Virus record (IMG/VR): IMGVR_UViG_3300021185_004305
Span: 1 to 53,570 of that record
DNA from: a virus
Direction: 5' to 3' (one strand)
Length of the DNA stretch: 53,570 nucleotides
This document shows, piece by piece, positions 653-29,663 of this stretch (position 1 is its first letter; the number at the start of each line of letters is the position of its first letter). The position numbers and the translations under genes are program-made. The notes under the pieces were generated by a model. The model was not told the DNA's origin, ran no database searches, and saw nothing but the letters and a program-made list of their open reading frames with translations.

Positions 653-1605
653 TTATTTCTCTTAAACCATTCAATTGTTTCTTCTATACCTTTTTCAAAG
701 GAGTAACTTGGTGTAAATCCAAGATTATTTATTTTTTCAGTATCTACCATTCTAAATGGTATGGTTGTTGGTTTGGAATTATCCCAAACTATCTCTGGTG
801 TAAGACCAGATACCTTCTGAATTGTATTTACTATATCTCCTATTGTAATTGGAGCTCCATATCCAACATTATACGGTTCCATTGGGTTACCATGTTCGAT
901 TATTGTTAATGCACCCTTAATCACATCCTTAACATACAAGAAATCTCTTACAACATCAGGTGAACCCCAAGCAGTGAATGGATTTTCTCCACCTAACATA
1001 CGATTTATAATTGCAGGTATCACATGACAAGTTTTTACATTGAAGTTATCGTTTGGTCCAAATATTGCCGAACCTCTACCTAAGAATATCTTTAATTTAG
1101 AGAAGTTTGAAGTATGTTCCATCAATTTTTCTCTATATCTTCTCATCCAACCATAACCAAAGTACGCAATGTAAGGTTCTTCATCCCAAAACTCATCTTC
1201 CTTCACAGGATATCTTCTATCGGGATAACCAGTTGATGAATTTAGGTCAAAAAATGAATCTACTTCATTCCTAGCACACGCATCAAGTACATTTCCAAGT
1301 AAGGTGATGTTTCCAAGTGAACCTTGTATATCAGTTCGTACTGAACCAGGATGTAAAACATGACCTGCACAATGAATTACCAAATCTGAACCTTTTGTTA
1401 GTTTGATTGCATCATCAATATTATTCAAATCAATGTTTTCTAGTATTGTTATATCTTTTTGTATCTCTTCACTAACTTGTAGTGGTGAATTGTAAGTGTG
1501 AGTAGTAATATCTGCACCCAACTTATGTAGTTCGTTGATAAAGTGTGTTGCAAGGAAACCTGCCCCACCTGTAATCACTACATTTTTATTTTTAAAGTAA
1601 CTCAT
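649..1605 (-). CDS. NAD(P)-dependent epimerase/dehydratase, GDP-fucose-synthase-like
   Basis: A 318-aa extended SDR protein. The Rossmann loop ITGGAGFLATHF is at about residues 11-22, followed by LVIHCAGHV and the serine motif LNSSTGYP. The usual catalytic Y-x3-K is not obvious: the matching segment reads GYGWMRRYREK, giving Y-x3-R, so either Arg replaces Lys or the active-site alignment is shifted. FLYVKDVIKG near residue 225 is a typical substrate-domain motif. It sits immediately before a Gmd-like dehydratase with an ATGA overlap. That pairing suggests a two-step route such as GDP-mannose to a GDP-6-deoxyhexose (fucose-like), which is inference. The start ATG follows the preceding stop by one base. 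Confidence 0.75.
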   Translation of the reverse strand: MSYFKNKNVVITGGAGFLATHFINELHKLGADITTHTYNSPLQVSEEIQKDITILENIDLNNIDDAIKLTKGSDLVIHCAGHVLHPGSVRTDIQGSLGNITLLGNVLDACARNEVDSFFDLNSSTGYPDRRYPVKEDEFWDEEPYIAYFGYGWMRRYREKLMEHTSNFSKLKIFLGRGSAIFGPNDNFNVKTCHVIPAIINRMLGGENPFTAWGSPDVVRDFLYVKDVIKGALTIIEHGNPMEPYNVGYGAPITIGDIVNTIQKVSGLTPEIVWDNSKPTTIPFRMVDTEKINNLGFTPSYSFEKGIEETIEWFKRNK

Positions 1606-5609: not shown

Positions 5610-7067
5610 TTAGTTTGGATTGTATTCGCCATCTTCAAAATGTGTTATATCACCCGGTCTTATTTCTACATCTGGTATTGTTTTATCAACATCTATGTTT
5701 TGATACCAAACAGCAAGTTCTGGAAACGTTTTACAAAAATCCTTTCCTCTTCTTTTATCATATTGTTCGTAGAATGATTTGAAATCATGAAATTGAATTT
5801 CATCCTCTCCCTCAGTAGTAACATGACCCGTTTTAACAACTTCTATATAATCAATTAATCTTTCTATCTGTGCAATTTCTCCTTCACTAAATAATTCATA
5901 GAAATCACTTTGTTTCTTTTGTACCTCAAACCAATTATTTAGTTTTTTGTGTAAAAACATTTTTACATCATTGGGTAACGCTAATGGTGACATAAATGCT
6001 GGCCATCTGAGTATATTAAAATCCACATTAGGTCTATTAGAACCATACTTCTTTTTTAATACAATCATATCATCTAAAAATTCAGTAATAGAAAATAAAC
6101 ATAATGAATTAATTGTCATCATGACTGTTAGTGAACGAAATATTTTTTGATTTACTCCTTCAAGAAAGGCAACCATATGACTTCTCCATTCAGGATAAAT
6201 TAAACCATCTCTAATATATTCAGCATGAGGACCAAATGATTCGTTTGATGTATATAAATCAAACTCCTTAATTGGCAACTCATACGATGCATCGATTAAT
6301 CGTTGAATTCTTTTAAAATTACCACCAAGATTTGAATTTACAGCAAATCTAAGTTTATCAGATTTATGTCCTTTCATCTTTTCTAAGAAACTCCAAAAGT
6401 TTGGAGATGCACATGGTTCACCACCTGTAATTCTTATTTCTTCTAATCCACCTTCAATTAAATCAGGCCACCATTTTAAAAATGCTTCTACATAAGGATT
6501 TTGGTCATTATATTTACCATTTGCATCTGCCCAAGAACCATTGTTTTGATATGCACCAGCTGATACTGATTTAAACTTTTGATATGGTCCAAATTTATCA
6601 ATATCCTTACCCCAAGTTGTAGAGTAACCAGCATTACAATATGAACATCCAAAATTACAAGTTCTATCAAAAGAAGCTTCAATTGTTTTTGGTATAATAT
6701 CAGCATCCCATGGTACATCTTTAATTGCAGCGATATCTTCTTCTTTATAAATCTTAGATTTGTAAATTCTATCTGCTATATTATCTCTACCAATATCTTC
6801 AATCTTCCAACAATAAGAACACTCAGCAGGTCGTTTACCTTCTAACATCATCTTTCTTTGTTTTTTAGAAAAATCAGTATTATGTAATTCAGATGGTCTA
6901 TCTTTTAATTTATCTACATCAATTGGATGAGGTAGTGGTAAGTGACATGAGTTTTTAAAACCATGCCCTAAATGCAATGATACATTGTACCATTTTGCTG
7001 CACAAAAACTTGGTGATATACTATTGAGATTATCATCTCTCCATTTTCTTAAATTTTCTGTTGACAT
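5610..7067 (-). CDS. Radical SAM protein (twitch-domain type) A
   Basis: A 485-aa radical S-adenosylmethionine enzyme. The 4Fe-4S/SAM motif is CNFGCSYC (C-x3-C-x2-C) near residue 137 in FDRTCNFGCSYCNAGYST. EIRITGGEP, the SAM-contacting GGEP element, follows about 80 residues later. Before the core is a cysteine/histidine-rich region (FCAAKW near 22, SCHLPLPHP, ECSYCWKIED) that could hold an extra iron-sulfur cluster or a metal. The same pre-core pattern recurs in the gene at 7819-9237, so the two are paralogues. The acceptor is unknown: radical chemistry on a sugar, a peptide or a modified base are all possible. It is 8 nt after a LamG-like protein gene in the glycan operon. Confidence 0.85.
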   Translation of the reverse strand: MSTENLRKWRDDNLNSISPSFCAAKWYNVSLHLGHGFKNSCHLPLPHPIDVDKLKDRPSELHNTDFSKKQRKMMLEGKRPAECSYCWKIEDIGRDNIADRIYKSKIYKEEDIAAIKDVPWDADIIPKTIEASFDRTCNFGCSYCNAGYSTTWGKDIDKFGPYQKFKSVSAGAYQNNGSWADANGKYNDQNPYVEAFLKWWPDLIEGGLEEIRITGGEPCASPNFWSFLEKMKGHKSDKLRFAVNSNLGGNFKRIQRLIDASYELPIKEFDLYTSNESFGPHAEYIRDGLIYPEWRSHMVAFLEGVNQKIFRSLTVMMTINSLCLFSITEFLDDMIVLKKKYGSNRPNVDFNILRWPAFMSPLALPNDVKMFLHKKLNNWFEVQKKQSDFYELFSEGEIAQIERLIDYIEVVKTGHVTTEGEDEIQFHDFKSFYEQYDKRRGKDFCKTFPELAVWYQNIDVDKTIPDVEIRPGDITHFEDGEYNPN

Positions 7068-7075
7068 ATGTTATA

Positions 7076-7822
7076 TTATTTTATAAATTCTGTTGGTACT
7101 TTTTCCACAAAATATGTATTTTTTGAATTATCATATATAATTCCTTGATTATTTACTGTATTAAAGTCATAGTTAAATATTACTTTATTATATTCATCGA
7201 TTTTGTTTAAGTTATTGATATCAGTTTTATATATTTTTTTAATTGTTTCTATATCTGTAATATCTTCTACAAAGAGTAAATTATCTATATCTACTGAACC
7301 ATGATAACGATGCTCAGGTACTTCAGTACCAGGATTACCAGTTCCTAGATACAATCCTTCTGTTCTATAATCATCTATTAGATTTTTATCGAAATCAATT
7401 TCACCTACTTTTTCAAAGTTTTTATAAATTATAAACTCATCATTTTTTCTAACTATGGTAATTACAATACCATTTGAAATTTCATCATAATTTACTCCAT
7501 GAAATGGTAGATAATGAAACTCATCATCTGCAACTTTAGTTGTTGCTTCCGTCCAAAATTCTAAAGCTAATGTATCCGCTTCATTATTATATGTTAAACC
7601 AAAGTTTTTACCAGGTTTCCCAAATATACAAAATATATTATCAGATTCTAAATCTTTATCTAATTTAAATTCAATATTAATCGAGTATTCTAATTGATGA
7701 AACAAATTAGATATTTTTTCAGATTCACTTTTATTAAACTCAGTAACGTACTGATGGTCTTTATGTTCATTTAAATCCCATTCATATTTAATCCAATATG
7801 GTTCTTTATAATTTATTATCAT
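7076..7822 (-). CDS. LamG/concanavalin-A-like lectin-fold protein
   Basis: A 248-aa protein whose strand pattern matches a LamG-like (ConA-like) jelly roll: YSINIEFKLDKD, IFCIFGKPGKNFGL, LALEFWTE, then IVITIVRKNDEFIIYKNFEKV with the typical 'no effect on the particle, small marker' hairpin, and LYLGTGNPG with FHGSVDIDNLLF at the end. The same modules are inserted in the three GT7-like proteins of this operon; here the module stands alone. It lies exactly between two radical SAM paralogues, overlapping one by 4 nt, so it may bind the glycan or protein substrate those enzymes act on. That role is inference. No signal peptide is seen. Confidence 0.6.
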   Translation of the reverse strand: MIINYKEPYWIKYEWDLNEHKDHQYVTEFNKSESEKISNLFHQLEYSINIEFKLDKDLESDNIFCIFGKPGKNFGLTYNNEADTLALEFWTEATTKVADDEFHYLPFHGVNYDEISNGIVITIVRKNDEFIIYKNFEKVGEIDFDKNLIDDYRTEGLYLGTGNPGTEVPEHRYHGSVDIDNLLFVEDITDIETIKKIYKTDINNLNKIDEYNKVIFNYDFNTVNNQGIIYDNSKNTYFVEKVPTEFIK

Positions 7823-9237
7823 TTTATATCATTTATAAATTCACTCATTTCAGGATAAGTTTCTTCACAATCCAATCCTCTTCTTTGTTTATAATCTTTA
7901 ATGTAATGTTTAAATTTCTTTTTACCCAATGAGAAGTCAACATCAGATTTCGCATCTTCCAAAAACATATCTTTTATTCTTGTTATTTTTTCAATTTCTT
8001 TTAATGTGAATCCACTATCAGTTGGTTCTTGTAATTGATATGAATTTAAACTTCTATATGATGAGAAAAACTTCATATATTTTTCTAATTTTTCAAAATA
8101 TGAAATATCTAAATATCCTTTTAATAATCTAAAACTTAAAAAGTCAGGATATCTTAAATAAGATGTATCTATTATTAGTGGAGAATTCCAATATCGTTTT
8201 GTATTAAAATGTTTAACTTTAAAATCATATATTTTTCTTAAAAGTTTTTCATAACTAAATGGTGAAAATATATTAAAGGTAGACATTACAACAATTGTTA
8301 ATTCAGGTATCTCCGTAAGTATTTTATCTATATTATCAAATAGTTGATTAAAGTTTAATCCAAATCTAATATATTCGGCTTGGTCTCCAAATGCATCTAC
8401 TGAAGTGTATAATATAAATTCTTTTACTCGTTTCTCCTTAATTATTAATTTAGCTTTTTCTATGAACTTATCTATTAGTTTATCTTCTACACAAAGATTA
8501 CTATTTATAGAAAGTTTTAAATTCTTATTAGGAGTATCTGTTTCTATAATTTCATCCAATACCTTAAATGTATCTTTAGAAAGTAAAGGTTCTCCTCCTG
8601 TTATTCTAAATGTATCCATACTTTTATAAAGTTCTGGCCACCATTTCCAAAAAGCTTCTATGTAAGGATTGTGTTCTGATTTTTTATAGGGAATCATATC
8701 TTCATTCTCTAATGTTTTCAATGAATTAAATCCATCTCCTGTTGAAAACTCTCCATGTTTTCTCATCTCCTCTACCCATTTAGAAGAATAAGATGGTCCA
8801 CAATACCCACATTTAAAATTACAAGTATTAGAAAAAGATACCTCTACATACTTTGGTAAAAAATTATCCCTCCATTGAGAATCTTTTATTTGTTCAAAAA
8901 ATGGTTTTGACCAAGATTCCTCTGATTTAAAAATTCTATCTGAGTATGAATTTGAATTATCTTCTACTTTCCAACAATAACCACATTCCTTTGGTCGTTT
9001 GTTTTCCAACATTTCTTTTCTAGCTTTCTTCTTTTGAGAACTATTATGTAATGCAGTATGGTCTTTTTGTATTTCTCTTAATGAAATTTTATGAGGTGCA
9101 GGATGATGACAAGAGTGAGTAGTTCCATCATGTAAATGCATTGTAACTTGTGTCCATTTAGCTAAACAAAACCCACATCCAACAGAATCTAACTTCTGTT
9201 TCATTTGTTCAAAGTTGTTACCTATAACTTTACTCAT
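7819..9237 (-). CDS. Radical SAM protein (twitch-domain type) B
   Basis: A 472-aa radical SAM enzyme and paralogue of the one at 5610-7067. The cluster motif is CNFKCGYC in FSNTCNFKCGYCGPSYSS near residue 138, and FRITGGEPLLS is the GGEP element. The N-terminal Cys/His set is conserved too: GCGFCLAKW near 20, SCHHPAPHKI, ECGYCWKVED. Overall order and spacing match the sister protein, but sequences between motifs differ widely, suggesting different substrates or an old duplication. ATGA overlaps link it to the genes on both sides (GT7-LamG upstream, LamG-like protein downstream). Substrate unknown. Confidence 0.85.
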   Translation of the reverse strand: MSKVIGNNFEQMKQKLDSVGCGFCLAKWTQVTMHLHDGTTHSCHHPAPHKISLREIQKDHTALHNSSQKKKARKEMLENKRPKECGYCWKVEDNSNSYSDRIFKSEESWSKPFFEQIKDSQWRDNFLPKYVEVSFSNTCNFKCGYCGPSYSSKWVEEMRKHGEFSTGDGFNSLKTLENEDMIPYKKSEHNPYIEAFWKWWPELYKSMDTFRITGGEPLLSKDTFKVLDEIIETDTPNKNLKLSINSNLCVEDKLIDKFIEKAKLIIKEKRVKEFILYTSVDAFGDQAEYIRFGLNFNQLFDNIDKILTEIPELTIVVMSTFNIFSPFSYEKLLRKIYDFKVKHFNTKRYWNSPLIIDTSYLRYPDFLSFRLLKGYLDISYFEKLEKYMKFFSSYRSLNSYQLQEPTDSGFTLKEIEKITRIKDMFLEDAKSDVDFSLGKKKFKHYIKDYKQRRGLDCEETYPEMSEFINDIK

Positions 9238-10682
9238 AATTTTATGTTTATAAATTTAGCATTTGGTGTTATTTCTTCAACACTTACTAATTCATATTTT
9301 AATGAATTCATTCCATCTGATTTGTAATCCCATGTACCTTGTTGCATTTGATGGACAAATCTTTTTTCATTTCTTGCAGTAGTTTCTCCTTTTGCCCAAA
9401 CTTCCTTACCATCACTATTTTTGACCAATCCCTCATCCTTATGTGGTAAACAATACATTTTACCAGGTACTCTATGTGGTACGGTTGTGTATGGTATTTT
9501 TACAACATCTTTTTTGAATGTACAATTATGTACAATTGCATTGTTATCATTGTTAGTTTTATCCATCATTAATCCATCTTTACAATCGTAATGTAGGACT
9601 AAACCATCATCTTCAACTTCGTTATGAATATTAGATACCTCATCCTTAGTTAACGCTCTGTTCCACATTCTCACATCTGCAATATCACCTCTAAACCATT
9701 TTGATGGTTCTGTATCTGCAACTGATGTAGTTGTTCCAAGATAATAACTTGTATTACCATATCGTTTTAACATTCCCTCAAATGATTGTGGTGAAGGTGT
9801 TCCCGTTCCCCATCTTGCATCAGATTCCTTTCCATTCATATAAAAATGAATATCATTTCCATCAACTACTAAGGTAATCCAAGACCATCTATCTTCATAG
9901 TTTTTCATCCATTGATAGATGTGTTCTCTTTGGTTGTTCCAAAGAGTTGCGGTATATGTTCTTGAGTTATTGTAACTAAATCCATAGTCATATCCTGGTC
10001 TACGAAGAATTGGATATTCACAAAATCTCCTATCCATATCACCAACTAACCAAATTGGAACTTTTTCTTCTTGTTGATGTGCTCTTACTAATACTGAAAT
10101 TGTATGTGAACGAGATGTTAAATTTCGTAATTGCCTAGTACATGGTATTTCTACATAAGATTTATATCCATCAAATGAAATAAAATCTTGTGGAGTTTTA
10201 TCGAAATCCATATATTCATAATTAGCGTATCCCTCTAAAACACATCTCCAAAACAAATCATCATCTTCCATTCCCCAATCCCAATAATCATTTGAATAAC
10301 CATTAGTTCTTTCAACTTGTTCTTTAGAAAATAAAATTGCACCACCAAAATACTCTTCATATTTTAGTTCATAGTTCATTTGTGAGATTTGAGTTGCAAT
10401 ATGTCTAGGTTTATCTTTTGGAAAAGAATAATCAGCACCTCCATCTTCTTCAGGAATCATATCAATATCATGATATACAACATAATCACATCCTTCTTTG
10501 AACGCCCACTCAGCAGCGATGTTTTTAGTTGCTCCTCTGTTGAACAACTTATCATCTACTTGATGACCAAAATAAATTTGATAATCAATTCCCCTATCCT
10601 TAAGGTATTTACCAATCTTTGGTATAAATTCTTTTAGATGTGATTCTCTGTTTCTATATGGTACACAAACTCCTAACTTCAT
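9234..10682 (-). CDS. Beta-4-galactosyltransferase-like (GT7) enzyme with inserted LamG domain (copy 1)
   Basis: A 482-aa protein with a GT7 catalytic domain split by a lectin-like insert. Residues 1-155 follow beta-1,4-galactosyltransferases: GVCVPYRNRESHL, FNRGATKNIA, HDIDM at 71-75 (metal-binding D-x-D), EYFGGAILFS, NGYSNDYWDWGMEDDD ending at 142. Residues about 165-392 are LamG-like (TISVLVRAHQ, FYMNGKES, YYLGTTTS, RGDIADVRMWNRALT). Residues about 400-482 resume GT7: YCLPHKDEG with the metal-ligand-like His, and SDGMNSLKYELV, which parallels the DGLNSLTY ending of vertebrate beta-4-GalT1. It should transfer a hexose from a nucleotide sugar; donor and acceptor are not known. Confidence 0.8.
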   Translation of the reverse strand: MKLGVCVPYRNRESHLKEFIPKIGKYLKDRGIDYQIYFGHQVDDKLFNRGATKNIAAEWAFKEGCDYVVYHDIDMIPEEDGGADYSFPKDKPRHIATQISQMNYELKYEEYFGGAILFSKEQVERTNGYSNDYWDWGMEDDDLFWRCVLEGYANYEYMDFDKTPQDFISFDGYKSYVEIPCTRQLRNLTSRSHTISVLVRAHQQEEKVPIWLVGDMDRRFCEYPILRRPGYDYGFSYNNSRTYTATLWNNQREHIYQWMKNYEDRWSWITLVVDGNDIHFYMNGKESDARWGTGTPSPQSFEGMLKRYGNTSYYLGTTTSVADTEPSKWFRGDIADVRMWNRALTKDEVSNIHNEVEDDGLVLHYDCKDGLMMDKTNNDNNAIVHNCTFKKDVVKIPYTTVPHRVPGKMYCLPHKDEGLVKNSDGKEVWAKGETTARNEKRFVHQMQQGTWDYKSDGMNSLKYELVSVEEITPNAKFINIKL

Positions 10683-11092
10683 AGTGTATCCGCTATTAAC
10701 TTTTTAAACTTAGTTGTACTCCAACCATGGTCTCTATTTAAATAATGAACTGGTACATCTAATTCGAAACCTGTGTATGTTTTACCACGATAATCATCTC
10801 CTAAAAATCTGATATCTGGATTTAATCTGTATATTAAATCTACCAATTCTTTTTCGTAAGTATAATACGCAATTCCATTTATAAATTTTATTGAAGTTAA
10901 AATTTCTGTTCTTTCTTGTTTAGTAAGAATTGGTTTTAGTTTCTCTGGTCTTTCTATTGATGGGTCTATATGTAAAAGAACTATAAGTTGTTTACAATAA
11001 GTTTTACACTCTTTAAACATCTTAATATAACCTGGATGTATTACATCGAAGTTACCGGCAATCACTCCCATATTATATTTATTATCCATCAT
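10679..11092 (-). CDS. Cytidylyltransferase-like nucleotidyltransferase (TagD-type)
   Basis: A 137-aa single-domain nucleotidyltransferase of the length usual for glycerol-3-phosphate cytidylyltransferases. The nucleotide-binding motif is AGNFDVIHPGY at residues 12-22, where the canonical H-x-G-H has Tyr at the last position. RTEILTSI near 78-85 and a C-terminal WSTTKFKKLI correspond to the R-T-E-x-I-S-T-T region of TagD-like enzymes. It would activate a phosphorylated polyol or sugar as a CDP (or ADP) derivative for transfer. It sits between two GT7-LamG genes with ATGA overlaps on both sides, which supports a precursor-supply role. The exact substrate is not visible. Confidence 0.75.
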   Translation of the reverse strand: MMDNKYNMGVIAGNFDVIHPGYIKMFKECKTYCKQLIVLLHIDPSIERPEKLKPILTKQERTEILTSIKFINGIAYYTYEKELVDLIYRLNPDIRFLGDDYRGKTYTGFELDVPVHYLNRDHGWSTTKFKKLIADTL

Positions 11093-12543
11093 AACTCTAT
11101 TGATATTTTACTTATTATTCCGTTTTCTTCTTTTTTTACTTCTTTAAATCTAAGTGTATTGATTCCATCAATTCTAAAATCATCTATGTTAGTTCTAACT
11201 TGATTATAATATTTTAATTGATTTTTTCTTGTTTCGTTATGTACCCACTTATTTCCAATAGAAGAATTACTTTTATGTTTTAATGACTTAAAACGAGATT
11301 CTCTACGATGTGGTTTTGGTAGAAAAGTTTTAAAGGATTCACTAGACTTATATAAATATATATTGTTTAAATAAACATCATATTTTCCACCCAAATCGAT
11401 TGATGTAGTTGATGTTGATATTTCTGGTAATATTTGTGTATGTAAAAATTCACTTGATTTAAAGTTTCCAAAATTTCTAAGTTTTGGTTTAGTTGGGTTT
11501 TGTGATATCTCAAAAACTTCATCATCATTAAGAGCAATATCATATATCTCGATACTCGATATTAATCCATAAAAGAAATCTTTATTTGATGGCTTACCAT
11601 TTCCAATACCAATAAAAATTTCATCAGATGATAATTGTAATATTTCATTATTCATTTTTTCTGTACCAACAAGCTTACCATTCATGTATAATTTTATTGT
11701 ATCTGAATTTTCATATACCATGGTTAGATGAACCCATCTCTCACCAACAACATCGGTTGAAACCGAATATGGTTTTTTATCCAAATCATATGATTGACAG
11801 AAAAATCTTCTAAATGAATTATAAAATAAACCCGTATTGTAACCAGGTATTGATAGTATAGGAAATTCATCATATTCTTTATTTTCACTTAAAGGTATAT
11901 CTTCTGGCTTTACCATAACAGAAATAGTAAACTCATCTTCAAGTAAATGTAATTTTTTATTAGAAAAACACTTTATAAAAGAATTCGTCCCATTAAACTT
12001 AAATGATTCTATTTCTTTAATAGTTTCATTACCGAAAGATTCAGTATCAATTTCTAAATCTGATTCGATACATCTAATTAATAAATCATCATCTTCGAAT
12101 CCCCATCCCCAATAATCATTTGAGAATCCATTAATAGTTTTGAAATCTTCTTTTGTAAACATTGTTACTCCACCGAAGTAATCAAAGAATGTAGTTTCGT
12201 AATCGTGTTCTTGTAGGTGTGTTGCTAAATGAAGTGGTTTATCTGAATAAGAATAATCCACGTCTTCAGGTAACATATCGACATCATGAAATACAAAATA
12301 ATCGCACCCCTTATCCAAGGCATACTTATATCCTGCATTCAGAAGTTTACCTCTGTTAAAAGGTTTATCATCTGATTGTTCAATGATGAAGATTTCGTAA
12401 TCAATATTCTTAATATAATCTTTCATATGAGATAAGAACCTTTTCAGTTGTTGTTCTCTATCTCTATATGGAACTATTATACCAAGTTTATGATTTACTC
12501 TCTTCTCCTTGAGTTTCTGTGTTCTCTTGGATTCTCTCAGCAT
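11089..12543 (-). CDS. Beta-4-galactosyltransferase-like (GT7) enzyme with inserted LamG domain (copy 2)
   Basis: A 484-aa relative of the gene at 9234-10682. GT7 first part: LGIIVPYRDREQQL from about residue 20, FNRGKLLNAG, HDVDM at 86-90, DYFGGVTMFT, GFSNDYWGWGFEDDD ending at 153. The LamG-like insert spans roughly 180-400 (FTISVMVKPED, IKLYMNGKLVG, IFIGIGNG, GLISSIEIYDIAL). GT7 last part: LKHKSN, then IDGINTLRFKEV near 460. The first 19 residues (basic, MLRESKRTQK...) lie inside the upstream 89-aa gene's end, a 56-nt overlap. No closer in-frame start codon exists before the catalytic domain. Catalytic acidic residues are all present, so it is probably active. Confidence 0.8.
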   Translation of the reverse strand: MLRESKRTQKLKEKRVNHKLGIIVPYRDREQQLKRFLSHMKDYIKNIDYEIFIIEQSDDKPFNRGKLLNAGYKYALDKGCDYFVFHDVDMLPEDVDYSYSDKPLHLATHLQEHDYETTFFDYFGGVTMFTKEDFKTINGFSNDYWGWGFEDDDLLIRCIESDLEIDTESFGNETIKEIESFKFNGTNSFIKCFSNKKLHLLEDEFTISVMVKPEDIPLSENKEYDEFPILSIPGYNTGLFYNSFRRFFCQSYDLDKKPYSVSTDVVGERWVHLTMVYENSDTIKLYMNGKLVGTEKMNNEILQLSSDEIFIGIGNGKPSNKDFFYGLISSIEIYDIALNDDEVFEISQNPTKPKLRNFGNFKSSEFLHTQILPEISTSTTSIDLGGKYDVYLNNIYLYKSSESFKTFLPKPHRRESRFKSLKHKSNSSIGNKWVHNETRKNQLKYYNQVRTNIDDFRIDGINTLRFKEVKKEENGIISKISIEL

Positions 12544-12757
12544 CTCTTGATGGTCTATTTGATGTTCCTACTGTTTTTGATTTTGCAATTTGATAAAATT
12601 CGTTTAGATACCATTCAAATCTTTCTTGCCACATATCTGCATCCAAGTCATATATCCAATCGTTAATTTCACCAATTGATTTACCAATTGATTCAAGAGC
12701 TTTTACACCTCTTTCCTCCAAGTTATCGTTACTTGTTGTTTTCGTTGTCTTTGCCAT
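12488..12757 (-). CDS. Small hypothetical protein (89 aa)
   Basis: An 89-aa protein of unknown family. The N-terminal third is polar (MAKTTKTTSNDN), the middle is a predicted helix with several Trp (EINDWIYDLDADMWQERF, WYLNEFYQIAK), and the C-terminal 25 residues are low-complexity and charged (rich in Glu, Ser, Thr and Gln). Its 3' end overlaps the next gene by 56 nt and its 5' end overlaps the coiled-coil gene by 29 nt, which is more than the 4-nt overlaps usual in this operon. A single codon track with no stop and an ATG on the expected strand make it likely real. No function can be assigned. Confidence 0.6.
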   Translation of the reverse strand: MAKTTKTTSNDNLEERGVKALESIGKSIGEINDWIYDLDADMWQERFEWYLNEFYQIAKSKTVGTSNRPSRDAERIQENTETQGEESKS

Positions 12758-13367
12758 AATTGTAATTTAGTTTTTTATTTTCTACTAATTCTGTTAATAA
12801 TTTTTTAAACATCCATCCTTCGTGTGATTTAAAATCAATAGAGAACGATGCTTCTTCTATATAATCTTTAAGTTTTACTGGTTTCCATTTTAATTTTTCC
12901 AATTCTGATTCTAGTTTTGGAATATCCCACTTTACTTCTTCTAAGTAGTCTTTTATCTTTTTTGGCTCCCACTTTAACTTTTCAATCTTTGCTTTGAGTT
13001 CTTCTATCTTCCACTCTAATTCTTCTATTTCGTTATTTTTATCATCTAATTCAAATTCAAGTTTTTCCATTTCTGCAGTTTTTACAACTACATTTGTATT
13101 TGCTTCATCTAACCTAAAAGTTTTTTGTTTTATTTCTTCCTCGGTTTCATCTATTCTTGGTTGATTATCCCAATACCTTTCAAAGTATTCACCAATATGA
13201 GAATTATTATGTTTAGAAGTTTTAAGTAAAGTTTCTAAAATCATAATAATTTTTAAAAATATAGCATTATCCTTAACACCTGGTTCAATAATATCTTGTA
13301 GACTATTATCTATGTGCTCAAGGGTTCGTACTACCTTTTCGTTATGTAACAATTCTAATAAGTTCAT
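12729..13367 (-). CDS. Coiled-coil protein with internal repeats
   Basis: A 212-aa protein, mainly helical. After an N-terminal helical part (LLELLHNEKVVRTLEHIDN) comes a heptad-rich stretch from about residue 75 to 145 (EIEELEWKIEELKAKIEKL). Two near copies of a 20-30-residue unit follow: LKWEPKKIKDYLEEVKWD and LKWKPVKLKDYIEEASFS. The repeated KW.P..(I/L)KDY(L/I)EE element is distinctive and I do not recognise it from any family. It starts inside the end of the GT7-like gene (26-nt overlap) and overlaps the 89-aa gene by 29 nt. It could be a scaffold for the glycosylation enzymes, but that is a guess from context. Confidence 0.65.
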   Translation of the reverse strand: MNLLELLHNEKVVRTLEHIDNSLQDIIEPGVKDNAIFLKIIMILETLLKTSKHNNSHIGEYFERYWDNQPRIDETEEEIKQKTFRLDEANTNVVVKTAEMEKLEFELDDKNNEIEELEWKIEELKAKIEKLKWEPKKIKDYLEEVKWDIPKLESELEKLKWKPVKLKDYIEEASFSIDFKSHEGWMFKKLLTELVENKKLNYNYGKDNENNK

Positions 13368-14799
13368 AATCTTCTTTATCTTGTTTATCTAATATTTTAT
13401 AAGTTAATGATGATAATCCAATAGTGGTATAATCTAATTTATCTGTTAGTACCTCATGAAAAAATATATCAGCATTTTCTTCAATATCAGGATTATATTT
13501 ATAATATTTTTTTATTATCTCAGTATCATCCTCATGTACTAATGATTTATATTCTCCTTGCAATCTTATTGGTAAATATATTGGAGTTGTTACATCTAAA
13601 GTAATTTCCTCTACATCAAATGGTCCTTCCAATTTTAAGTGATTTAAATTTTTACCCTTATCTAATAATAATCTATTTTTATAAAAAGTTTTAAAGTCAT
13701 ATATACTACAAATATTAAACCCAAATTTATTTTTCAAATTATTAAATGAACTTTCTCCATCGTAAAATAAAGCAGATACTATTTCTTCATTAATTTTTGT
13801 ATTTGAAGTTAATATTGATGAGATTTTAATATCACTTTGTGTATCTGAAATTTTAACTGTATGTTTTGTATAATCAAATAAATCGAAATTTTCTTTTAGT
13901 TTAAGAGTTTCTAATTTATTATTGAGGTACATAAAGATACCATTGTTATTTTTACCAAATATAACATGATTCCATTTTTCTTTTTTATAATCATGAGATA
14001 CCTCATAGTGTATTTCATCTTTATCCCATATCTGACCTAGTACATGCTTTCCATGTGATAAGAATACACCAGTATCACAACCTTCAAATGAAAATAAGTT
14101 TTTTACTTCTTCTGTATTCTTTGAATCTTTGAACCAAAATGAAATAAAAAAATCTCCATTTATTAATTCATTTGTCATATGATTTATATTTCCATAAAAT
14201 CTACTTTCAGCACCAAGTGATATTGTATTTATTTTATGGTTTCTTTTATCTGTACCTATTTCTACATTTTCTATCCTATATGGTAACACATCAGTAATAT
14301 CATATCTTTCATATGTTTGATTTATATCATAAAACTTTTCTAAATACGCTCCACTTCTTTCTAATCTATAAAGTAAGTCTAAATCATGAAAACCATAACC
14401 CCAATACTCATTTGAGTATCCGTTTGCATTTTCAAAATCTTCTCTACTGATAACATTAACTCCACCAAAATATTGTGGATATGGCATCTTGTTATCATGT
14501 GCTTCAACATTAGTTGCTAAGTGAGTTGGTGATTCGGGATAAGTATAATCACACTCATCATTCATTGGTAACATATCTATATCATGAAAAGCAAAGTAAG
14601 TGTATTCTTTACCAACTTCTTTACTAACAATATTACATAATTTACCATAGTTAAAAGGTCTATTATCTGTTTGTTCTGCAATAAAAATAGTGTAATCGAT
14701 TCCCTTATCTTTAAGAAACTCTTGCATATGAGGTATAAACACATCTAAGTGGTCTTGCCTATCTCTATAAGGAACAATAATTGCTAACTTATCTATCAT
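13342..14799 (-). CDS. Beta-4-galactosyltransferase-like (GT7) enzyme with inserted LamG domain (copy 3, altered active site)
   Basis: A 485-aa third copy of the GT7-LamG design. First part: LAIIVPYRDRQDHLDVFI, FNYGKLCNIV, HDIDMLPMND at 72-81, QYFGGVNVIS, GYSNEYWGYGFHDLD ending at 141. Where the other copies have WG(M/F)EDDD, this one has YGFHDLD, so the usual catalytic Glu and one Asp are replaced. The insert (about 185-400) is LamG-like but more diverged (FFISFWFKDSK, GIFMYLNNKLE, and SALFYDG). The end (SLVHEDDTE, TTIGLSSLTYKILD) again matches the GT7 C-terminus. It may have changed specificity or act without catalysis. ATGA overlap with the upstream gene. Confidence 0.78.
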   Translation of the reverse strand: MIDKLAIIVPYRDRQDHLDVFIPHMQEFLKDKGIDYTIFIAEQTDNRPFNYGKLCNIVSKEVGKEYTYFAFHDIDMLPMNDECDYTYPESPTHLATNVEAHDNKMPYPQYFGGVNVISREDFENANGYSNEYWGYGFHDLDLLYRLERSGAYLEKFYDINQTYERYDITDVLPYRIENVEIGTDKRNHKINTISLGAESRFYGNINHMTNELINGDFFISFWFKDSKNTEEVKNLFSFEGCDTGVFLSHGKHVLGQIWDKDEIHYEVSHDYKKEKWNHVIFGKNNNGIFMYLNNKLETLKLKENFDLFDYTKHTVKISDTQSDIKISSILTSNTKINEEIVSALFYDGESSFNNLKNKFGFNICSIYDFKTFYKNRLLLDKGKNLNHLKLEGPFDVEEITLDVTTPIYLPIRLQGEYKSLVHEDDTEIIKKYYKYNPDIEENADIFFHEVLTDKLDYTTIGLSSLTYKILDKQDKEDYELIRIVT

Positions 14800-15638
14800 A
14801 CTTTTATTATAACATTTGAAAGTTCATTCCACTTTGTATAATCAAAGTAAGAATTATCTTCCATTTTTTCAAACATAAATTCAGGATTATTTATATCGAT
14901 TTTCCAATCATTAATCTGAATTCCTCTGTACATTTTTTTATATTCCTGCCAATAGGAATAATCTTTTTTTGTTTCTGATACTTCTTTTAATCTTTCAAGA
15001 ACGGTTGAATCCCATTTAAAATGATGAACTTGTACAATCCCATTTTCTATTGGATATCTTTTAGGATGATTCCATCCTCGTTCTCTCCAAGTATCAGTAT
15101 CACCGATTACTGCAAAATGTTGTCCATGTGTTACATCTACTGAACCTTTCATTACACAACATTTGTTTGGCATCGCTCCACTCATAGGATATCTAAAAAA
15201 TCCTGCAAGTGGAAACGATTTCCAAATATTAGTTTCTTTTGTTACCAAAGGAAACTCTCCTCCCTCTCCTATCCTATCGAGGAATCCTCCTGTGATAAAC
15301 TCCCATCCGTTTTCATCACACTCTGAAATCATTTCTCTGATATCAGTTGGATAAACATGAAGTTCATCATCATCCGAAACCACCCACCATTCGTTTGGTT
15401 TGGTTTGTTTAACTTCGTTATATAATTGAGTTACTCTTTCCCAATTAAATTTTTCTTCGGTAACTATTTTGTAGGGTTTGATACCGAGATTTATTACATC
15501 TTCTAAAATACCATCTAAGGTATGTTGTCTATAAACTACTACATAAATTTCATCTACAATATCTTTGTAGTGATTTATCATATGTGGTAGGATTGTTGTA
15601 TTGTGGCCAACTACTGTGACCAAGTTTACTTTTGGCAT
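14796..15638 (-). CDS. GT-A type glycosyltransferase (GT2/GT92-like)
   Basis: A 280-aa protein with a GT-A glycosyltransferase look: VNLVTVVGHNTTILPHMINH opening, DEIYVVVYRQHT second strand, then WWVVSDDDELHVYP near residue 108 with a D-D-D acidic motif, and GGFLDRIGEGGEFP. The pattern 'stay at home, look at the interlocutor, DDDE' fits the Glyco_tranf_2_4/GT92-like families, which use nucleotide sugars and a metal. A late HHFKWDSTVLERLKE segment is also typical of that group, where an H-x-K-W element follows the catalytic part. ATGA overlap downstream and 13-nt overlap upstream place it firmly in the operon. Confidence 0.7.
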   Translation of the reverse strand: MPKVNLVTVVGHNTTILPHMINHYKDIVDEIYVVVYRQHTLDGILEDVINLGIKPYKIVTEEKFNWERVTQLYNEVKQTKPNEWWVVSDDDELHVYPTDIREMISECDENGWEFITGGFLDRIGEGGEFPLVTKETNIWKSFPLAGFFRYPMSGAMPNKCCVMKGSVDVTHGQHFAVIGDTDTWRERGWNHPKRYPIENGIVQVHHFKWDSTVLERLKEVSETKKDYSYWQEYKKMYRGIQINDWKIDINNPEFMFEKMEDNSYFDYTKWNELSNVIIKV

Positions 15639-16408
15639 TTCTGAAGAATTGTTAGACCCGTAGAAGATGGTCTAGTTTTAAATATACCATTATTGAAAAA
15701 GTTAAAAATTTCCCAATCACTATCATCACTCAGTTCTTTTACTAATTTAGATGGTCCGTTTGTTATATTATCTTGATGATTTTGACTCTTAACATCTTCT
15801 GTAACTATTAAATCTTTTTCGAATGATTCATCTGTATCATGTATTGATATAATTCCATTTGGAGAAAGTATTTTAGAGTATAACTCGAAGTCTTGTTTTA
15901 CATCTTCATAAGAATGACCTGCATCAATATGTAAATAATCAATTTTAATATCTTCTTTTACAAAAAAGTTATAATATGCGTTTTCTGTTGTTTCTAATAT
16001 AATTCTTGGAAAAAAGTTTTTTCTTAGAAAAGAATCCCCATTCTTCCAATCTACGTTTCCACCAATTCCATTTGCAGCATCAACAAGATATGTACTTCCT
16101 ATATCACCCCAATTAAAATCTCGGTTTCCTTCAAAGATTTGTGAATCATACAAATCAACTCTTGCTTGTGTCATTATTCTAGGAATGAATCCACCCCCAC
16201 TACCCAAACAAACACAAACTTTTGCTCTCATATAATGAATTATAGAGTAAATTAATAAACCATCACCTAAAGTTAAATCAGTAGCACCATGTGTCCAACG
16301 ATATGGAACAGGAATATGCTCATGAAATTCCTTTCCATTTACATCTAATTTTGGTTTTTGATTATTTGTTAAATATTCTCGAAGATAATCAAGATTTAGT
16401 AATGTCAT
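15626..16408 (-). CDS. Class I SAM-dependent methyltransferase
   Basis: A 260-aa Rossmann-fold methyltransferase of the Methyltransf_24 type. Motif I is VCVCLGSGGGFIPRIM near residue 70, the binding acidic residue is in RVDLYDSQ, and the post-II region IDYLHIDAGHSYEDVKQDF has the D-x-G-H-x-Y-E-D-V signature of this family, followed by LSPNGIISIHDTDES. Enzymes of this kind methylate sugars or small molecules, for example in surface polysaccharide tailoring. It is the first gene of the long operon, and two copies of the proposed late-promoter motif lie in the 59-nt gap just before it. A role in capping or decorating the glycan is inference. Confidence 0.75.
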   Translation of the reverse strand: MTLLNLDYLREYLTNNQKPKLDVNGKEFHEHIPVPYRWTHGATDLTLGDGLLIYSIIHYMRAKVCVCLGSGGGFIPRIMTQARVDLYDSQIFEGNRDFNWGDIGSTYLVDAANGIGGNVDWKNGDSFLRKNFFPRIILETTENAYYNFFVKEDIKIDYLHIDAGHSYEDVKQDFELYSKILSPNGIISIHDTDESFEKDLIVTEDVKSQNHQDNITNGPSKLVKELSDDSDWEIFNFFNNGIFKTRPSSTGLTILQKCQK

Positions 16409-16467: not shown

Positions 16468-17460
16468 TTAGTTAAATAGATTTACAACATCAGTTGTCCA
16501 TCTTGATTTATCATCATATTTTTTTAAATATTCTTTTAATTTATAAAATTCATTTGTATGAACTGATTCACTATCGGATAAAATTAATTCATATATTTTT
16601 TTAAACTCATTTTTTGATGATGCTCTATATCGATAATCAACATCTCCCCAATCAGAATGTATGATAGGTAATTTACCATAATCAACTGATTGGAATATAG
16701 AATAACCAAATGGTTCTTTAGTATGACATGAATGTGAAATACTCCATTTAAGGTTCATAAAAGAGTTTAGTATATCGATACTCCATTTAAAATATTTAGT
16801 TCGTTTAAAATCATAATATCCACTTTCATTTATATTTTTCCAATCATAATATCCACTTAAAACATATGATGGAAGTGAATCTAAATAATGTACATTTTTC
16901 CTTGATTCTATTCTTGATGCAAATCCTATTTTATTATTTATTTTACCAAGTTCTATATTATGCTTAAATTCGTAAAAGTTTGTTATAGTTTCTGTTTCGA
17001 AATCATTAAATATTTCAGATGGATTATTTCCAATCCAAATTCTTTTTTTACAATAAGTAAGTAATTCTATTACATCATCTTCTACTACATTTGTACTAAA
17101 CTGTCTAAGAGAATCTCCATATTGTAACATATCAGGTAGATATGCTTGTACAAAAATAGTTCCCCACTTATCTTTATATTTCCATAGATGGTCTCGTTTG
17201 TGATAATTTGCATGCAAAAAATGTATTTCACTACACATTTTTAAAATAAAATCTGTCTTTTTTGCATCTTCTAAGTGAAAGTGAAGTTTTCCTAGTTTTT
17301 CAAGATTGTAAGTATCTCTCCATCCAATTGGTTTTTTAGAATCTACCAAAATATAATATTCAGAAAGATGAGGTAAAACTAATTCTATAAAATTATTAGT
17401 CCACATATCAGCACCACCTTGAATGATGTTACCACAACCTGTTGTTACAAAAACCTTCAT
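16468..17460 (-). CDS. GT4-like (GT-B fold) glycosyltransferase
   Basis: A 330-aa protein. The frame extends to a TTG at 17481, but ATG 17460 is a better start: it gives MKVFVTTGCGN directly at the first strand and avoids overlapping the tail-fibre gene. The C-terminal domain has GT4 features: KIGFASRIESRKNVHYLDSL (start of the donor-binding domain), and KEPFGYSIFQSVDYGKLPII, matching the E-P-F-G....E..A.G.P(I/V) element that holds the nucleotide sugar. It is transcribed directly behind the giant fibre gene (11-nt gap) and ends before the promoter motifs of the glycan operon. Modification of the fibre is a reasonable guess. Confidence 0.7.
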   Translation of the reverse strand: MKVFVTTGCGNIIQGGADMWTNNFIELVLPHLSEYYILVDSKKPIGWRDTYNLEKLGKLHFHLEDAKKTDFILKMCSEIHFLHANYHKRDHLWKYKDKWGTIFVQAYLPDMLQYGDSLRQFSTNVVEDDVIELLTYCKKRIWIGNNPSEIFNDFETETITNFYEFKHNIELGKINNKIGFASRIESRKNVHYLDSLPSYVLSGYYDWKNINESGYYDFKRTKYFKWSIDILNSFMNLKWSISHSCHTKEPFGYSIFQSVDYGKLPIIHSDWGDVDYRYRASSKNEFKKIYELILSDSESVHTNEFYKLKEYLKKYDDKSRWTTDVVNLFN

Positions 17461-17471
17461 TAATTTTATTT

Positions 17472-20400
17472 TTAACCACAATAGAGGTAACCATATACAC
17501 CCACTGCTAATCCACTAGAATCAAATGTTACATCTTCCATTGCTTTTGCAACCGTATAAGAACATTGTGATTGTCTTGCTTCGTACTGAGGATTATTATC
17601 TCCATCAAATGAAGTAATTACAAATTCTGATGGTTGTTTCATTAAATACCCTGCAGTATCAGAAGAACATAATAAATCACCTCTTGAAACATCTCCACCT
17701 TGGTTACATACTTTAAATCCTGGTAACAGGGAACGGGAACCCGATTCATAACTATCTCCAATAGATGCAACTTTCCACATAGTTTTAGTATCTCTTTCAT
17801 TTTCAGCAAACGTATCACCCAATGAGTCATATGCATCCGAACCACTTCTTGGTTCTTTCCATAAGATACCAACAATCTCAGTATCTTTAGCTGTAGTTGA
17901 TTTTATTATTTGATTATTTGAATCTAATTTTACTAAATCACCAACATCTACACTTTCACTATTTAACTTTACATATTGGTGACCTGCCGTAAATACTTCT
18001 TTCAATAATTGAATATTATGAGAAAGTATTCCATCTGATATATAATTATGTACTATACTTAAATGATAGTTCCATACATCAACTTCTTCTTTAAATCTTT
18101 CAATACTTTTAACTTTATCAAGAACCAATTCACCATCAATTACAGTATATATTTCAGAACCCTCGGATAAAAAACTAACAGGTTGTGTTTGTTCTTTAAA
18201 ATCAGGATGATATAGTGAATGAGATTTAGAACACCTAAGTTCCTTACCTGATTCTGTTTTTATAATAGACCACCCTTTACTTTTACCTACAATAATTTTA
18301 TCAATAGATGACCATCTCCATTTATTTGTTTCAAAATCAAATACTTTTATAAGGTCTTCTTTTGTTGTATCTTCTATGTTAACTTCACCTCTTTTTGTAA
18401 TAATTTTTGTACCAGGTAAAACACAATTTTCTTGTGCAAAAGATGCAAGGTCATTAAAATCAGTATTTAAACTAGAAATAGAAGTACCATACCCATCGTA
18501 TGTCGAAAACCTTGTGCTTAAACGCGTAGTTCCTACTAGTGCAGTTGATTTTAATTTCACTTCTGATGAATCAATTTCAAAAAGAGTACTCCACGCTTTT
18601 GTGTTAGTTCCATCAGTTAATGTTGCTCCTGAAGAAATAGATACACCCGTTGAAACCGCACCTGCAGTTACCGTTCCTTTAAAGTATGCATCACCAGTAG
18701 ATGTAACTCTCATACCAGGTGTAATGATATCACCAGATGATAAATCAAATGTTGAACCTGCAGTTGAAAAGTTTCCACTTGAGTATGAATAGTTTGTTGA
18801 AGTAACTAAGTTTGTAGCAACTTGAGAAGTAACGATACTTCCTGCTCCTATGTAAGTTGTTGAAGTTCCTGAATTGATTGAATCGATTGCTGCCATCGCT
18901 CCCAATGAACTGGTAAATGAGTTTAACCCACCAATTCCCGCAGCATTTGCAGTTACACCTGCTTGAGCAGCAGCTGCCGCCTGAGCCGCAGCAGTTGCTG
19001 ACTGAGCCGCAGCAGTTGCAGATGATTGAGCAGCGGAAGCGGAAAGAGCAGCATTTCCTGATGCCGTAGTTGCAAAACTTTCAGCATTTGATTGAGCGGC
19101 AGAAGCGGAAGTAGCCGCATTTCCTGCTGCCGTAGTTGCAAAACTTTCAGCATTTGATTGAGCGGCAGAAGCGGAAGCGGCGGCTCCTAATCCAAAATCA
19201 ACTGCAGATGTTGAACCTGCTGCAATCGTAATAGCACCATTCATTGATAAGTTACCATTTTGGTCAAATGTTAATTTATCTCCAAGTGAAAATTTTCCAT
19301 CACTATCAATAAAAAGTTGAGTGTTTGCGTTTCCAAAAGTTCCTGTTCCTACTTTGAATACAGTACTTGTTACAGATACAGGTCCAATTGTTGCTGAGTT
19401 CATTACAGCATTTCCACTCATGTCTACACTAAATGGAGCATCAGCAAATGTAGCATCACCTAATTGAATACCACTAGCACCTGCTTTAAATACATTATCA
19501 TTAGTACCAATAGTTACTGAACCACCAAATGTACCTGTTGCTGCTGATATATCACCATCGAATGAACCACCTGCTGCAGATAAGTTACCTGAGAATGTAG
19601 CAGTACCATCCGATTCGATTTTAAATTGTTCAGCATGAATCGAACCAGAATCTAAATTAATTGCCATACCTGCTGCAGCATAACCAGTTGAAGTTAAAAT
19701 TCCATTAGTTGTACCAGAAGCTGAATCATTCCAATTTGTAGATATAATCCTACCGGTTGAAATATTATCTCCATGAATTGCAGTTGTACCACTAGTTCCA
19801 AATGATAATGCATTTCCACTACCATTTGAAACCGAATCATCTGCGGTAAACGTTACTAAACCAGTAAATCCAATTGCTTGTTGAGCATCACCAAATGTTG
19901 GTGTACCTGTCCCACCCCCAGCAGTTGTTTCAACAACAGAATAGGTTGAGTACCAATATTTATTTTCATTACCACCCGAATATGTTGGTGCACCCAATCC
20001 CCAATCAGCGGTTAAACTAGTAAATGTACCATTAGAAAAAGTATATGAAGTTGCACTTGGTGTAGCTGGTTGAGTTGAACCAGTTTCTTGATAATGAATC
20101 ATTCCAGTTGCAGTTCTCTTACCATCAGCACCAGTTATTGATTCACCTTGAACTGCAACTCCTACATTAACTGTAATTGTTTTACCTGTAAGTGTAGTTC
20201 CTTCTGAATTGGTGTAACTTAGTGTTACAACGGAAGTTGTACCATCACCATCACTTGGTGTGGTTGGTGTAATCGTTCCATTATTATTATTTGAACCACT
20301 TGTTACACCAGTAATTCTAAATTTATTTTTGGCTATTGCTCCACTAGTATCATATCCATAATCATCACCACCTTGATTTACAATAATACTTACTGCAGAT

Positions 20401-29195: not shown

Positions 29196-29663
29196 TTAAT
29201 TTTCCAAGTCTTTTCTAAAAAACTTTCCTAATAGGTTATCATTTAGAGATAACTCATCTCCTAATACGTTGTGTGAGAACTGTTCTTGTAGTTCATAATA
29301 GGTTAAAGCTTTCTTTCCTTTACAAAATCTAAGTATTTCTAACTTTAGTGTATCGTTTATCTCTCCCCTCGGTTCTTCTTGTAGTGCCATCTCGTTTGAA
29401 TGAAACCAAAGTTGTACTGAAGCATTTGATGAACGATAATCTAACCACTTAGATTCTTTTACTACTTTTCTTTTTCGTTTATAACCTTTTAATGGCGGTA
29501 ATGTTCTGTGTGAATATAGGGATTTTTTCCCAATATAATATTGACCAGTTTCTCCGTTGGTTATTTTGTATATGAATCCGATAGTACCTTCTGGCATATC
29601 TGATATCTCTGTTATACATTTTCCTTTATATGTCCATCCCATAGTTAAAAATCTTGAAATCAT
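29196..29663 (-). CDS. GIY-YIG domain protein (putative endonuclease)
   Basis: A 155-aa protein with a GIY-YIG-type start: GTIGFIYKITNGETGQYYIG at residues 26-45, where GFIY and YYIGKKS give the family's two short strands. A basic stretch (KGYKRKRKVVKESK) and SKWLDYRSSN follow, resembling small phage proteins of this fold whose length (about 150 aa) fits. ATG 29663 has AGAGAGG 8-13 nt upstream; ATG 29642 is the alternative and would remove seven residues. It starts inside the end of the sulfotransferase gene. It may be a repair or homing-type nuclease; catalytic Arg and Glu positions were not confirmed. Confidence 0.65.
   Translation of the reverse strand: MISRFLTMGWTYKGKCITEISDMPEGTIGFIYKITNGETGQYYIGKKSLYSHRTLPPLKGYKRKRKVVKESKWLDYRSSNASVQLWFHSNEMALQEEPRGEINDTLKLEILRFCKGKKALTYYELQEQFSHNVLGDELSLNDNLLGKFFRKDLEN

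Follow-up and report, generated by a model that had tools for sequence, protein, structure and literature searches.

The window analysed here, the whole 53,570-base virus record IMGVR_UViG_3300021185_004305 of IMG/VR, encodes three paralogous glycosyltransferases of family GT7, and a LamG-like jelly roll is inserted in the catalytic domain of each. A group of large uncultured aquatic phages carries two or three such GT7 paralogues, each with a whole lectin-like domain inserted, and these may glycosylate the virus particle. The architecture is real: it represents a variant within a known enzyme family, and the genes are embedded in a conserved phage cassette. The architecture itself is secure, while its function is something we infer. 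As proposed in an earlier note made from the sequence alone, three open reading frames (ORFs) on the minus strand, which also holds baseplate, primase and SbcC-like genes, each encode a GT7 enzyme with a LamG-like insert:

9234..10682, minus strand: GT7 copy 1, 482 amino acids (aa), GT7 catalytic domain interrupted by LamG; all catalytic residues kept (Pfam and model)
10203..10682, minus strand: first GT7 half of copy 1, residues ~1-160; DxD, Tyr of YFGG, WDWGMEDDD (Pfam 7N 2-80, 7C 93-153; model)
9489..10193, minus strand: LamG insert of copy 1, residues ~164-398 (Laminin_G_3 171-350; structural match to PAPP-A)
9237..9488, minus strand: second GT7 half of copy 1, residues ~399-482; His414 is the metal His by alignment; SDGMNSLKY
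11089..12543, minus strand: GT7 copy 2, 484 aa, with LamG insert; all catalytic residues kept (read from sequence)
11335..12012, minus strand: LamG insert of copy 2, approximate, residues ~178-403 (Laminin_G_3 200-343; alignment)
11092..11334, minus strand: second GT7 half of copy 2, residues ~404-484 (alignment)
13342..14799, minus strand: GT7 copy 3, 485 aa, with LamG insert; equivalents of Arg228, Glu317 and Asp319 changed to Tyr, His and Leu
13585..14238, minus strand: LamG insert of copy 3, residues ~188-405 (structure only)
13345..13584, minus strand: second GT7 half of copy 3, residues ~406-485 (alignment and structure)

Two halves of a GT7 domain flank the insert

The Pfam families Glyco_transf_7N and Glyco_transf_7C match all three window copies above the cut-off, and Laminin_G_3 (PF13385) does so in copy 1 (E 1.3e-14) and copy 2 (E 6.5e-18); the Laminin_G_3 match of copy 3 is sub-threshold (E 0.05), and the jelly roll there was recognised from a structure model instead. 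In an alignment of 101 members that includes the three window copies (A2), GT7N was found in 101/101, GT7C in 101/101 and LamG in 95/101 at E 0.001, and chance is ruled out because the three domains recur across these members. By sequence, beta4GalT1 matches residues 2-152 of copy 1 (E 2e-30), and a second match in the tail is faint (0.5 bits); therefore, structure was needed for this part.

Profiles of the GT7 N-terminal half and of the GT7 tail were built from the alignment, and the gap between them was measured. We collected 158 distinct phage proteins, of which 157 matched the N-half profile; the exception (L211) had been trimmed at a late start, and its full frame does carry the N-terminal half. 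The two halves lie 205-261 residues apart (median 242) in 157/157 phage proteins, as against -3 to 34 residues in 42 uninterrupted cellular ORFs, and this spacing rules out misassembly or chance. In the 42 cellular GT7s the phage-tail profile matches the tails directly after their N-terminal half. The claim that the C-terminal part is GT7 is thus upheld, since the phage-tail profile finds cellular GT7 tails and the match to the solved bovine beta4GalT1 (1tvy) spans the chain ends; a tail foreign to GT7 is ruled out by the same two results. In 12 large records, each of the 29 GT7C matches above the cut-off falls in a frame of 431-502 aa, consistent in length with the insert, and a thirtieth, below the cut-off, falls in a 415-aa frame. 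The initial collection skipped 14 ORFs, four of them short and ten without the motif P[YFHW][RK][ND]; these ten, one of which is a duplicate, were restored for the table of catalytic residues.

That the composite is an artefact, with separate genes fused by misassembly or a misread frame, has a negligible probability. Nothing was found in favour of it. Against it stand the 157 distinct phage proteins, encoded on many contigs, in which the arrangement is a single open frame, and the confident single-chain models.

Structure models and the insertion site

AlphaFold models were obtained for copy 1 (alignment of 101 sequences; pLDDT 93.1, pTM 0.85) and copy 3 (alignment of 71 sequences; pLDDT 91.5, pTM 0.82). 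On comparison with 1tvy by VIA-align, copy 1 gave Z 27.8 with 215/272 aligned at a root mean square deviation (rmsd) of 2.1 A (model 1..482 on chain 180..398), and copy 3 gave Z 26.9 with 212 aligned at rmsd 1.7 A (model 1..485 on chain 178..398). The middle parts (copy 1 ~164-398, copy 3 ~188-405) match LamG-containing proteins and pentraxins with Z 16-21; against PAPP-A, the copy 1 insert scores Z 21.3-21.4 and the jelly roll of copy 3 (residues 189-405) Z 20.1, with 194 aligned at rmsd 2.5 A. As the earlier note had expected, the GT7 halves of both modelled copies pack as one domain with the LamG inserted, so that each model shows a single GT7 domain split by a single jelly roll. Copy 2 is predicted from its sequence to have the same architecture. 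The high pTM of a two-domain protein suggests that the LamG is packed in a fixed manner on the GT7 domain. Among the 50 listed of 367 matches at E 0.001 in a viral structure library, the composite was not recognised by aligned length or by name, many entries being unnamed.

The insert lies between the catalytic-base helix (xED) and the metal-binding His. Three hypervariable regions build the acceptor sites of GT-A enzymes, HV3 being the tail past the last core strand, and acceptor binding by B4GALT1 uses HV2 and HV3, according to passages of PMC7185993 and PMC7948508. Acceptor binding by the LamG is plausible because the insertion is near a hypervariable region where GT-A enzymes form acceptor sites. 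The enzymes should be cytosolic, as the models of copies 1 and 3 start at the GT7 core and leave no room for a signal or membrane anchor.

Catalytic residues of the three copies

Bovine residue numbers were mapped onto the phage positions by motif alignment, using what we take to be the numbering of the bovine enzyme. The equivalents of Arg228, Asp252, Asp254, Glu317, Asp318 and His347 are kept in 73/73 copy-1 rows and 66/66 copy-2 rows of the alignment. The Tyr289 equivalent, which presumably favours UDP-Gal over UDP-GalNAc, is kept in 73/73 and 65/66 rows, respectively (138/139 together). Three restored rows (one copy-1-like and two copy-2) also keep DxD, Glu-Asp and the C-terminal His; the copy-1-like one (L012) is without the first Arg of the RxR motif. 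In the copy-2 rows, the Asp319 equivalent is Asn in four and the Asp320 equivalent is Asn in three. The metal site of bovine beta4GalT1 is given as Asp254, His347 and Met344 in the relevant passage of PMC7565966.

The copy-3 rows form one clade of 24 (support 0.993), in which the Arg228 equivalent is Tyr throughout (24/24; 23 alignable rows, and L211 by eye). A Lys at Arg228 of the bovine enzyme (R228K) shifts the catalytic base and changes the donor, as described in part of PMC7185993. In addition, the Asp319 equivalent is replaced in all 23 aligned copy-3 rows, and the His347 equivalent is lost in 6/24; among these six, DxD is also lost in two, and the Asp318 equivalent in three plus, by eye, L211. 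The window copy 3 itself keeps the DxD, Asp318 and His347 equivalents, and those of Arg228, Glu317 and Asp319 are changed. The motif WG.EDDD, which the earlier note assigned to all three genes, is present in copy 1 (WDWGMEDDD) and copy 2 (WGWGFEDDD), but copy 3 has WGYGFHDLD. On these residues copy 3 is read as a paralogue of altered or lost activity, and it is probably not an ordinary galactosyltransferase. Of the three galactosyltransferases proposed for the window, copies 1 and 2 are therefore retained as probable ones with the catalytic set kept, whereas copy 3 is a modified member of a clade that loses these residues.

Phage relatives and the conserved cassette

A copy-1 query returned 173 viral stretches, all relatives, and the best 80 of these were fetched; the match spans residue 1-2 to 480-482. 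A profile query gave at least 598 stretches with at least 573 relatives, and the architecture was read from the best 80, which were fetched. The viral records with relatives reach 288 kb. The cassette counts below come from the best 80 loci of the profile query, with 70 distinct copy-1 proteins, a sample that favours near relatives. The genes concerned are, in the window:

17472..24815, minus strand: large tail-fibre-like protein, 2447 aa, proposed acceptor; named by size, repeats and position only
16468..17481, minus strand: probable GT-B-type glycosyltransferase, from our reading of the sequence, without a meaningful family match; recurs at the cassette head
15626..16408, minus strand: methyltransferase of the cassette (PF13578 E 5e-11)
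14796..15638, minus strand: GT2-like protein of the cassette (PF13704 E 7e-5, below cut-off)
12729..13367, minus strand: predicted coiled-coil protein between copies 3 and 2; weak matches only, mostly coiled-coil-type
12488..12757, minus strand: small conserved 89-aa protein before copy 2; 78 ORFs in 71 loci, some of which share one contig
10679..11092, minus strand: cytidylyltransferase-like nucleotidyltransferase between copies 2 and 1 (PF01467 E 1.2e-9)
7819..9237, minus strand: twitch-domain radical SAM protein, next after copy 1 (NF033640 E 3.6e-96)
7076..7822, minus strand: free-standing LamG-like protein, homologue of the insert (hhalign probability 98.9, E 1.7e-17), without a Pfam match
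5610..7067, minus strand: second twitch-domain radical SAM protein (NF033640 E 2.4e-82)
649..1605, minus strand: NAD-dependent nucleotide-sugar epimerase (PF01370 E 1.4e-35; phrog_540)

Among the 59 copy-1 relatives with at least 4.5 kb upstream, copy 2 was found in 58/59, the GT2-like gene in 58/59, the methyltransferase in 51/59, the small conserved protein in 43/59, copy 3 in 20/59 and the nucleotidyltransferase in 17/59. Downstream, a radical SAM gene lies within 700 bp in 67/68 of the relatives with 1 kb on that side. The exceptions are L159, which is without copy 2, and L210, where the radical SAM gene is not next. The five largest records and the window share one gene order: primase, SbcC, large fibre-like gene, GT-B-like gene, methyltransferase, GT2-like gene, GT7 genes with radical SAM, and epimerase-like genes. 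Up to two other large ORFs stand between the fibre-like and the GT-B-like gene, and some records have extra genes between primase, SbcC and fibre. A fibre-like homologue stands upstream of the cassette in 5/5 large relatives.

The fibre-like protein has a Ser+Thr content of 24.7%, the highest of the 39 listed window ORFs (the next are 22.7%, 20.6% and 20.2%), and it gave no PHROG match and no Pfam fibre match. Near its C-terminus (residues ~2227-2267) there is an intein/Hint-like stretch (PF14890 E 2e-5, below the cut-off). The small conserved protein, without a PHROG or Pfam match, belongs to a family encoded between GT7 copies that could be an adaptor or a substrate.

Distribution in phages and cells

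In 50,697 phage records, neither the three GT7 copies nor the GT2-like protein had a match, and the radical SAM protein matched two Vibrio phages at 24%. The baseplate wedge protein matches Microcystis phage Mel-JY01 (41.7%), Flavobacterium immuto phages (37.7%) and an uncultured 484-kb phage (37.1%); no GT7 is named in the annotation of the 42 kb around the matches in Mel-JY01 and the Flavobacterium immuto phages. Searches for lineage markers gave 0/6 for Terminase_6C, and HSP70 and tRNA-synt_2 were found in 0/12 large relatives, whose records may be fragments; these markers did not place the phages in a lineage.

The cellular search covered one genome each for 84,980 species, using GT7-derived patterns drawn from phage sequences, which may miss diverged cases. 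It yielded 55 genome loci. The insert is present in six of these (nine ORFs; two of the loci share one metagenome-assembled genome (MAG)), and 42 ORFs are uninterrupted; seven further ORFs are without a tail match, but have just 27-104 residues after the N-terminal half. A common bacterial architecture is unsupported by these figures, and within the searches made the composite is thus not a usual feature of bacterial genomes. The description of the architecture as unusual holds in so far as it is rare in cells and absent from the 50,697 phage records, but not within large uncultured phages, across which it recurs. The uninterrupted GT7 genes of Pelagibacteraceae genomes (L137, L139-L148, L150) offer an insert-free comparison set.

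Three of the six insert-bearing cellular loci (L097, L098 and L101) carry the phage cassette and are probably phage contigs binned into MAGs, and a further one, L109, has a copy-3-like protein. In L099 and L100 the setting is not the phage cassette. GT7N, GT7C and LamG are all above the cut-off in L099, and its neighbours are a GT2 gene (PF00535, E 1.4e-12), an ABC transporter (E 1e-28) and an HlyD-like protein (E 0.001, below the cut-off). An LRR-kinase gene also lies near this GT7-LamG gene (L099:3244-11076), and an exported glycan or glycopeptide is possible. The two loci belong to one phylum, probably Fibrobacterota. Among 167 genomes of that phylum, 71 gave some match and two a full-length one, both already known; the other matches are to the LamG region, save one short match at positions 113-171.

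Origin and conservation of the insert

Across distant phages each of the three copies has a clade of its own (supports 0.85, 0.996 and 0.98), and the distant relative L012 falls outside all three. Therefore, either the copies were duplicated before these phages diversified or the cassette was transferred as a unit. A tree of the GT7 parts only (103 rows) needs two changes of the insert label, and one change suffices in 0% of 200 bootstrap trees. For this tree the phage rows were thinned to 18 per copy, and rows without either half or starting past profile position 15 were dropped, L109 included; a long-branched Simkania row stands among the insert-bearing rows with weak support. On this tree a single origin of the insert is possible. 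The insert may have come from the free-standing LamG gene, which stands after the radical SAM gene in the window, or that gene may itself derive from the insert; the family set compared with the insert profile comprised 12 sequences, two of which had been added on position alone, and filtering left 9.

The LamG evolves faster than the GT7 domain: mean identities are 54 vs 73% in copy 1 and 33 vs 52% in copy 2. Just 9 positions of the copy 2 LamG are conserved at 90%, and in the copy 1 LamG 41 positions, some of them polar or aromatic, are conserved at 97% or more. The latter bear on the possibility that the LamG is a pentraxin-like protein-binding or oligomerising module which binds no sugar but attaches the enzyme to the fibre or to partner enzymes, a reading we rate as unlikely. 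Docking would be in keeping with the pentraxins and PAPP-A among the next-best structural matches, with the free-standing LamG homologue, coiled coil and small conserved protein within the cassette, and with copy 3, which keeps the fold while its clade loses catalytic residues. However, the insertion point near the acceptor-forming regions of GT-A enzymes argues against it, as do the 41 conserved positions, although these could equally serve a protein partner.

Proposed function and alternatives

We tentatively propose, with slightly less than even confidence, that these phage GT7s with an inserted jelly roll carry out LamG-guided glycosylation of the virion, copies 1 and 2 being active and copy 3 a modified or inactive paralogue. 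From what is known of GT7 enzymes, copies 1 and 2 would be metal (Mn)-dependent inverting transferases with a UDP-sugar donor, probably UDP-galactose. The LamG, judging by its position, would hold or select the acceptor beside the active site; a glycan under extension or a protein already glycosylated could fill that role. Copies 1 and 2 may cooperate with the cassette's GT2-like, GT-B-like, methyltransferase and sugar-nucleotide enzymes, and the gene context suggests that the glycan would be assembled in the host cytoplasm on a protein of the virion, the neighbouring fibre being the likeliest. Copy 3 may serve as a binding or scaffold subunit. A rather improbable variant is that the sugar order is set by the enzymes, the LamG of each GT7 reading the preceding glycan before the enzyme transfers its own sugar and copy 3 acting as a catalytically modified lectin-scaffold that organises the others on the fibre.

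The virion role is suggested by the association of copy-1 relatives with copy 2 and the GT2-like gene (58/59), radical SAM (67/68) and the fibre-like homologue (5/5). It is favoured because the cassette is constant, unlike the sporadic, polymorphic clusters treated in parts of PMC7824862.

Several points weigh against virion glycosylation. Only position and Ser/Thr content mark the fibre as the proposed acceptor, with other window ORFs close behind in that content, and the name fibre itself comes from size, repeats and location. Protein binding and oligomerisation are further functions of LamG folds, and the faster evolution of the LamG together with the few conserved positions in copy 2 means that a common ligand is not implied. 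The Fibrobacter-phylum MAG (L099) has the same architecture beside GT2, ABC transporter and HlyD-like genes, a context that needs no virion, and the radical SAM proteins, the small 89-aa family and the coiled coil are without a role in the proposed scheme. In addition, Iyer et al., in the part of PMC7824862 on jumbo cyanophages, assign clusters of paralogous glycosyltransferases, sugar-modifying enzymes and nucleotidyltransferases to the host outer polysaccharide.

On the latter model, the host surface (lipopolysaccharide, capsule or teichoic-type glycans) would be modified to block superinfection and the LamG would bind host glycan, which we consider somewhat unlikely here. A host-surface role is mentioned also in passages of PMC10202952 and PMC12619734, and the window cassette likewise has a nucleotidyltransferase and an epimerase. 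However, the published argument, so far as the passages of PMC7824862 go, rests on sporadic, polymorphic clusters, whereas the gene order of the present cassette is kept in distant phages, and in 5/5 large relatives the cassette follows the fibre-like gene directly or after up to two ORFs. We also noticed no lipid-carrier or membrane transferase in the annotation, although no dedicated search for one was made.

Phage glycosyltransferases are often assigned to DNA protection (PMC12619734 and PMC10202952, in the passages concerned), and the transferases might thus hypermodify phage DNA. This is highly improbable, as the nearest solved relatives are beta-1,4-galactosyltransferases acting on glycans, and no base-modification gene was noticed in the annotated parts, where no dedicated search was made and most of the genome lies outside the window.

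For the virion reading, large uncultured phages whose conserved cassette is linked to a fibre-like gene offer a case in which one can test whether a phage coats its own receptor-binding apparatus. The proteins are also a natural example of a whole lectin-like domain inside a glycosyltransferase catalytic domain near the acceptor side, kept in paralogues across many phages. If the insert chooses the acceptor, it would show that GT-A specificity can be gained via domain insertion, and the proteins would be starting points for glycan engineering.

Relation to known systems

Animal beta-1,4-galactosyltransferases 1 and 7 (CAZy GT7) share the GT-A fold with the phage proteins over nearly the whole domain; the DxD, Glu-Asp and C-terminal His residues are common to them and to copies 1 and 2. 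However, the solved enzymes align without an insert at the LamG site, and copy 3 departs from them at the Arg228, Glu317 and Asp319 equivalents. The animal enzymes are Golgi membrane proteins. Uninterrupted bacterial GT7s (Azospirillum, Pelagibacteraceae, Parachlamydiaceae, Planctomycetota and others) have homologous N- and C-terminal halves, but these are adjacent in the 42 ORFs (gaps given above). The GT27 polypeptide GalNAc-transferases are related GT-A enzymes with a C-terminal ricin-type lectin domain used in acceptor choice; that lectin has a different fold and is appended, not within the catalytic domain. GT7 and GT27 are placed in one clade in the part of PMC7185993 concerned.

The jumbo-phage polysaccharide clusters of Iyer et al. 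resemble the present cassette in bringing together paralogous glycosyltransferases, HIGH-type nucleotidyltransferases and sugar-modifying enzymes, in the portions of PMC7824862 describing them. Laminin G3 domains are reported there on jumbo-phage tail fibres and other virion components, not inside an enzyme, and the main text of that paper does not contain 'LamG', 'radical SAM', 'galactosyltransferase' or 'GT7'. The 'moraphages' (PMC12619734) are likewise large aquatic metagenomic phages, with four putative core glycosyltransferase groups, and the main text on them is without 'LamG', 'lectin', 'galactosyl' or 'radical SAM'. HSP70 and tRNA-synt_2 were absent from the large relatives here, but only some moraphages encode DnaK, and lineage identity is unproved. 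In the titles, abstract starts and selected passages of the open-access literature, no description of a GT7 with a LamG was found; in the passages of PMC9413028, PMC10266531 and PMC9563170, and in the 'LamG domain' passages of PMC10434189, the glycosyltransferase and the LamG domain are not one protein as far as shown.

Other genes of the window

The gene run of the epimerase also holds a DUF5672 protein (1607-2350, E 1.4e-28) and a GDSL-like hydrolase (2350-2961, PF13472 E 1e-5, below the cut-off). A sulfotransferase is encoded at 29626-30198 (PF03567 E 1.5e-19), of a family that acts on glycans in animals, and within the stretches fetched one large relative of the five (L253) has a homologue upstream of the cassette. 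Near the baseplate genes, a Nol-like carbamoyltransferase is encoded at 50477-52177 (phrog_1601 E 2e-116), with both Pfam domains.

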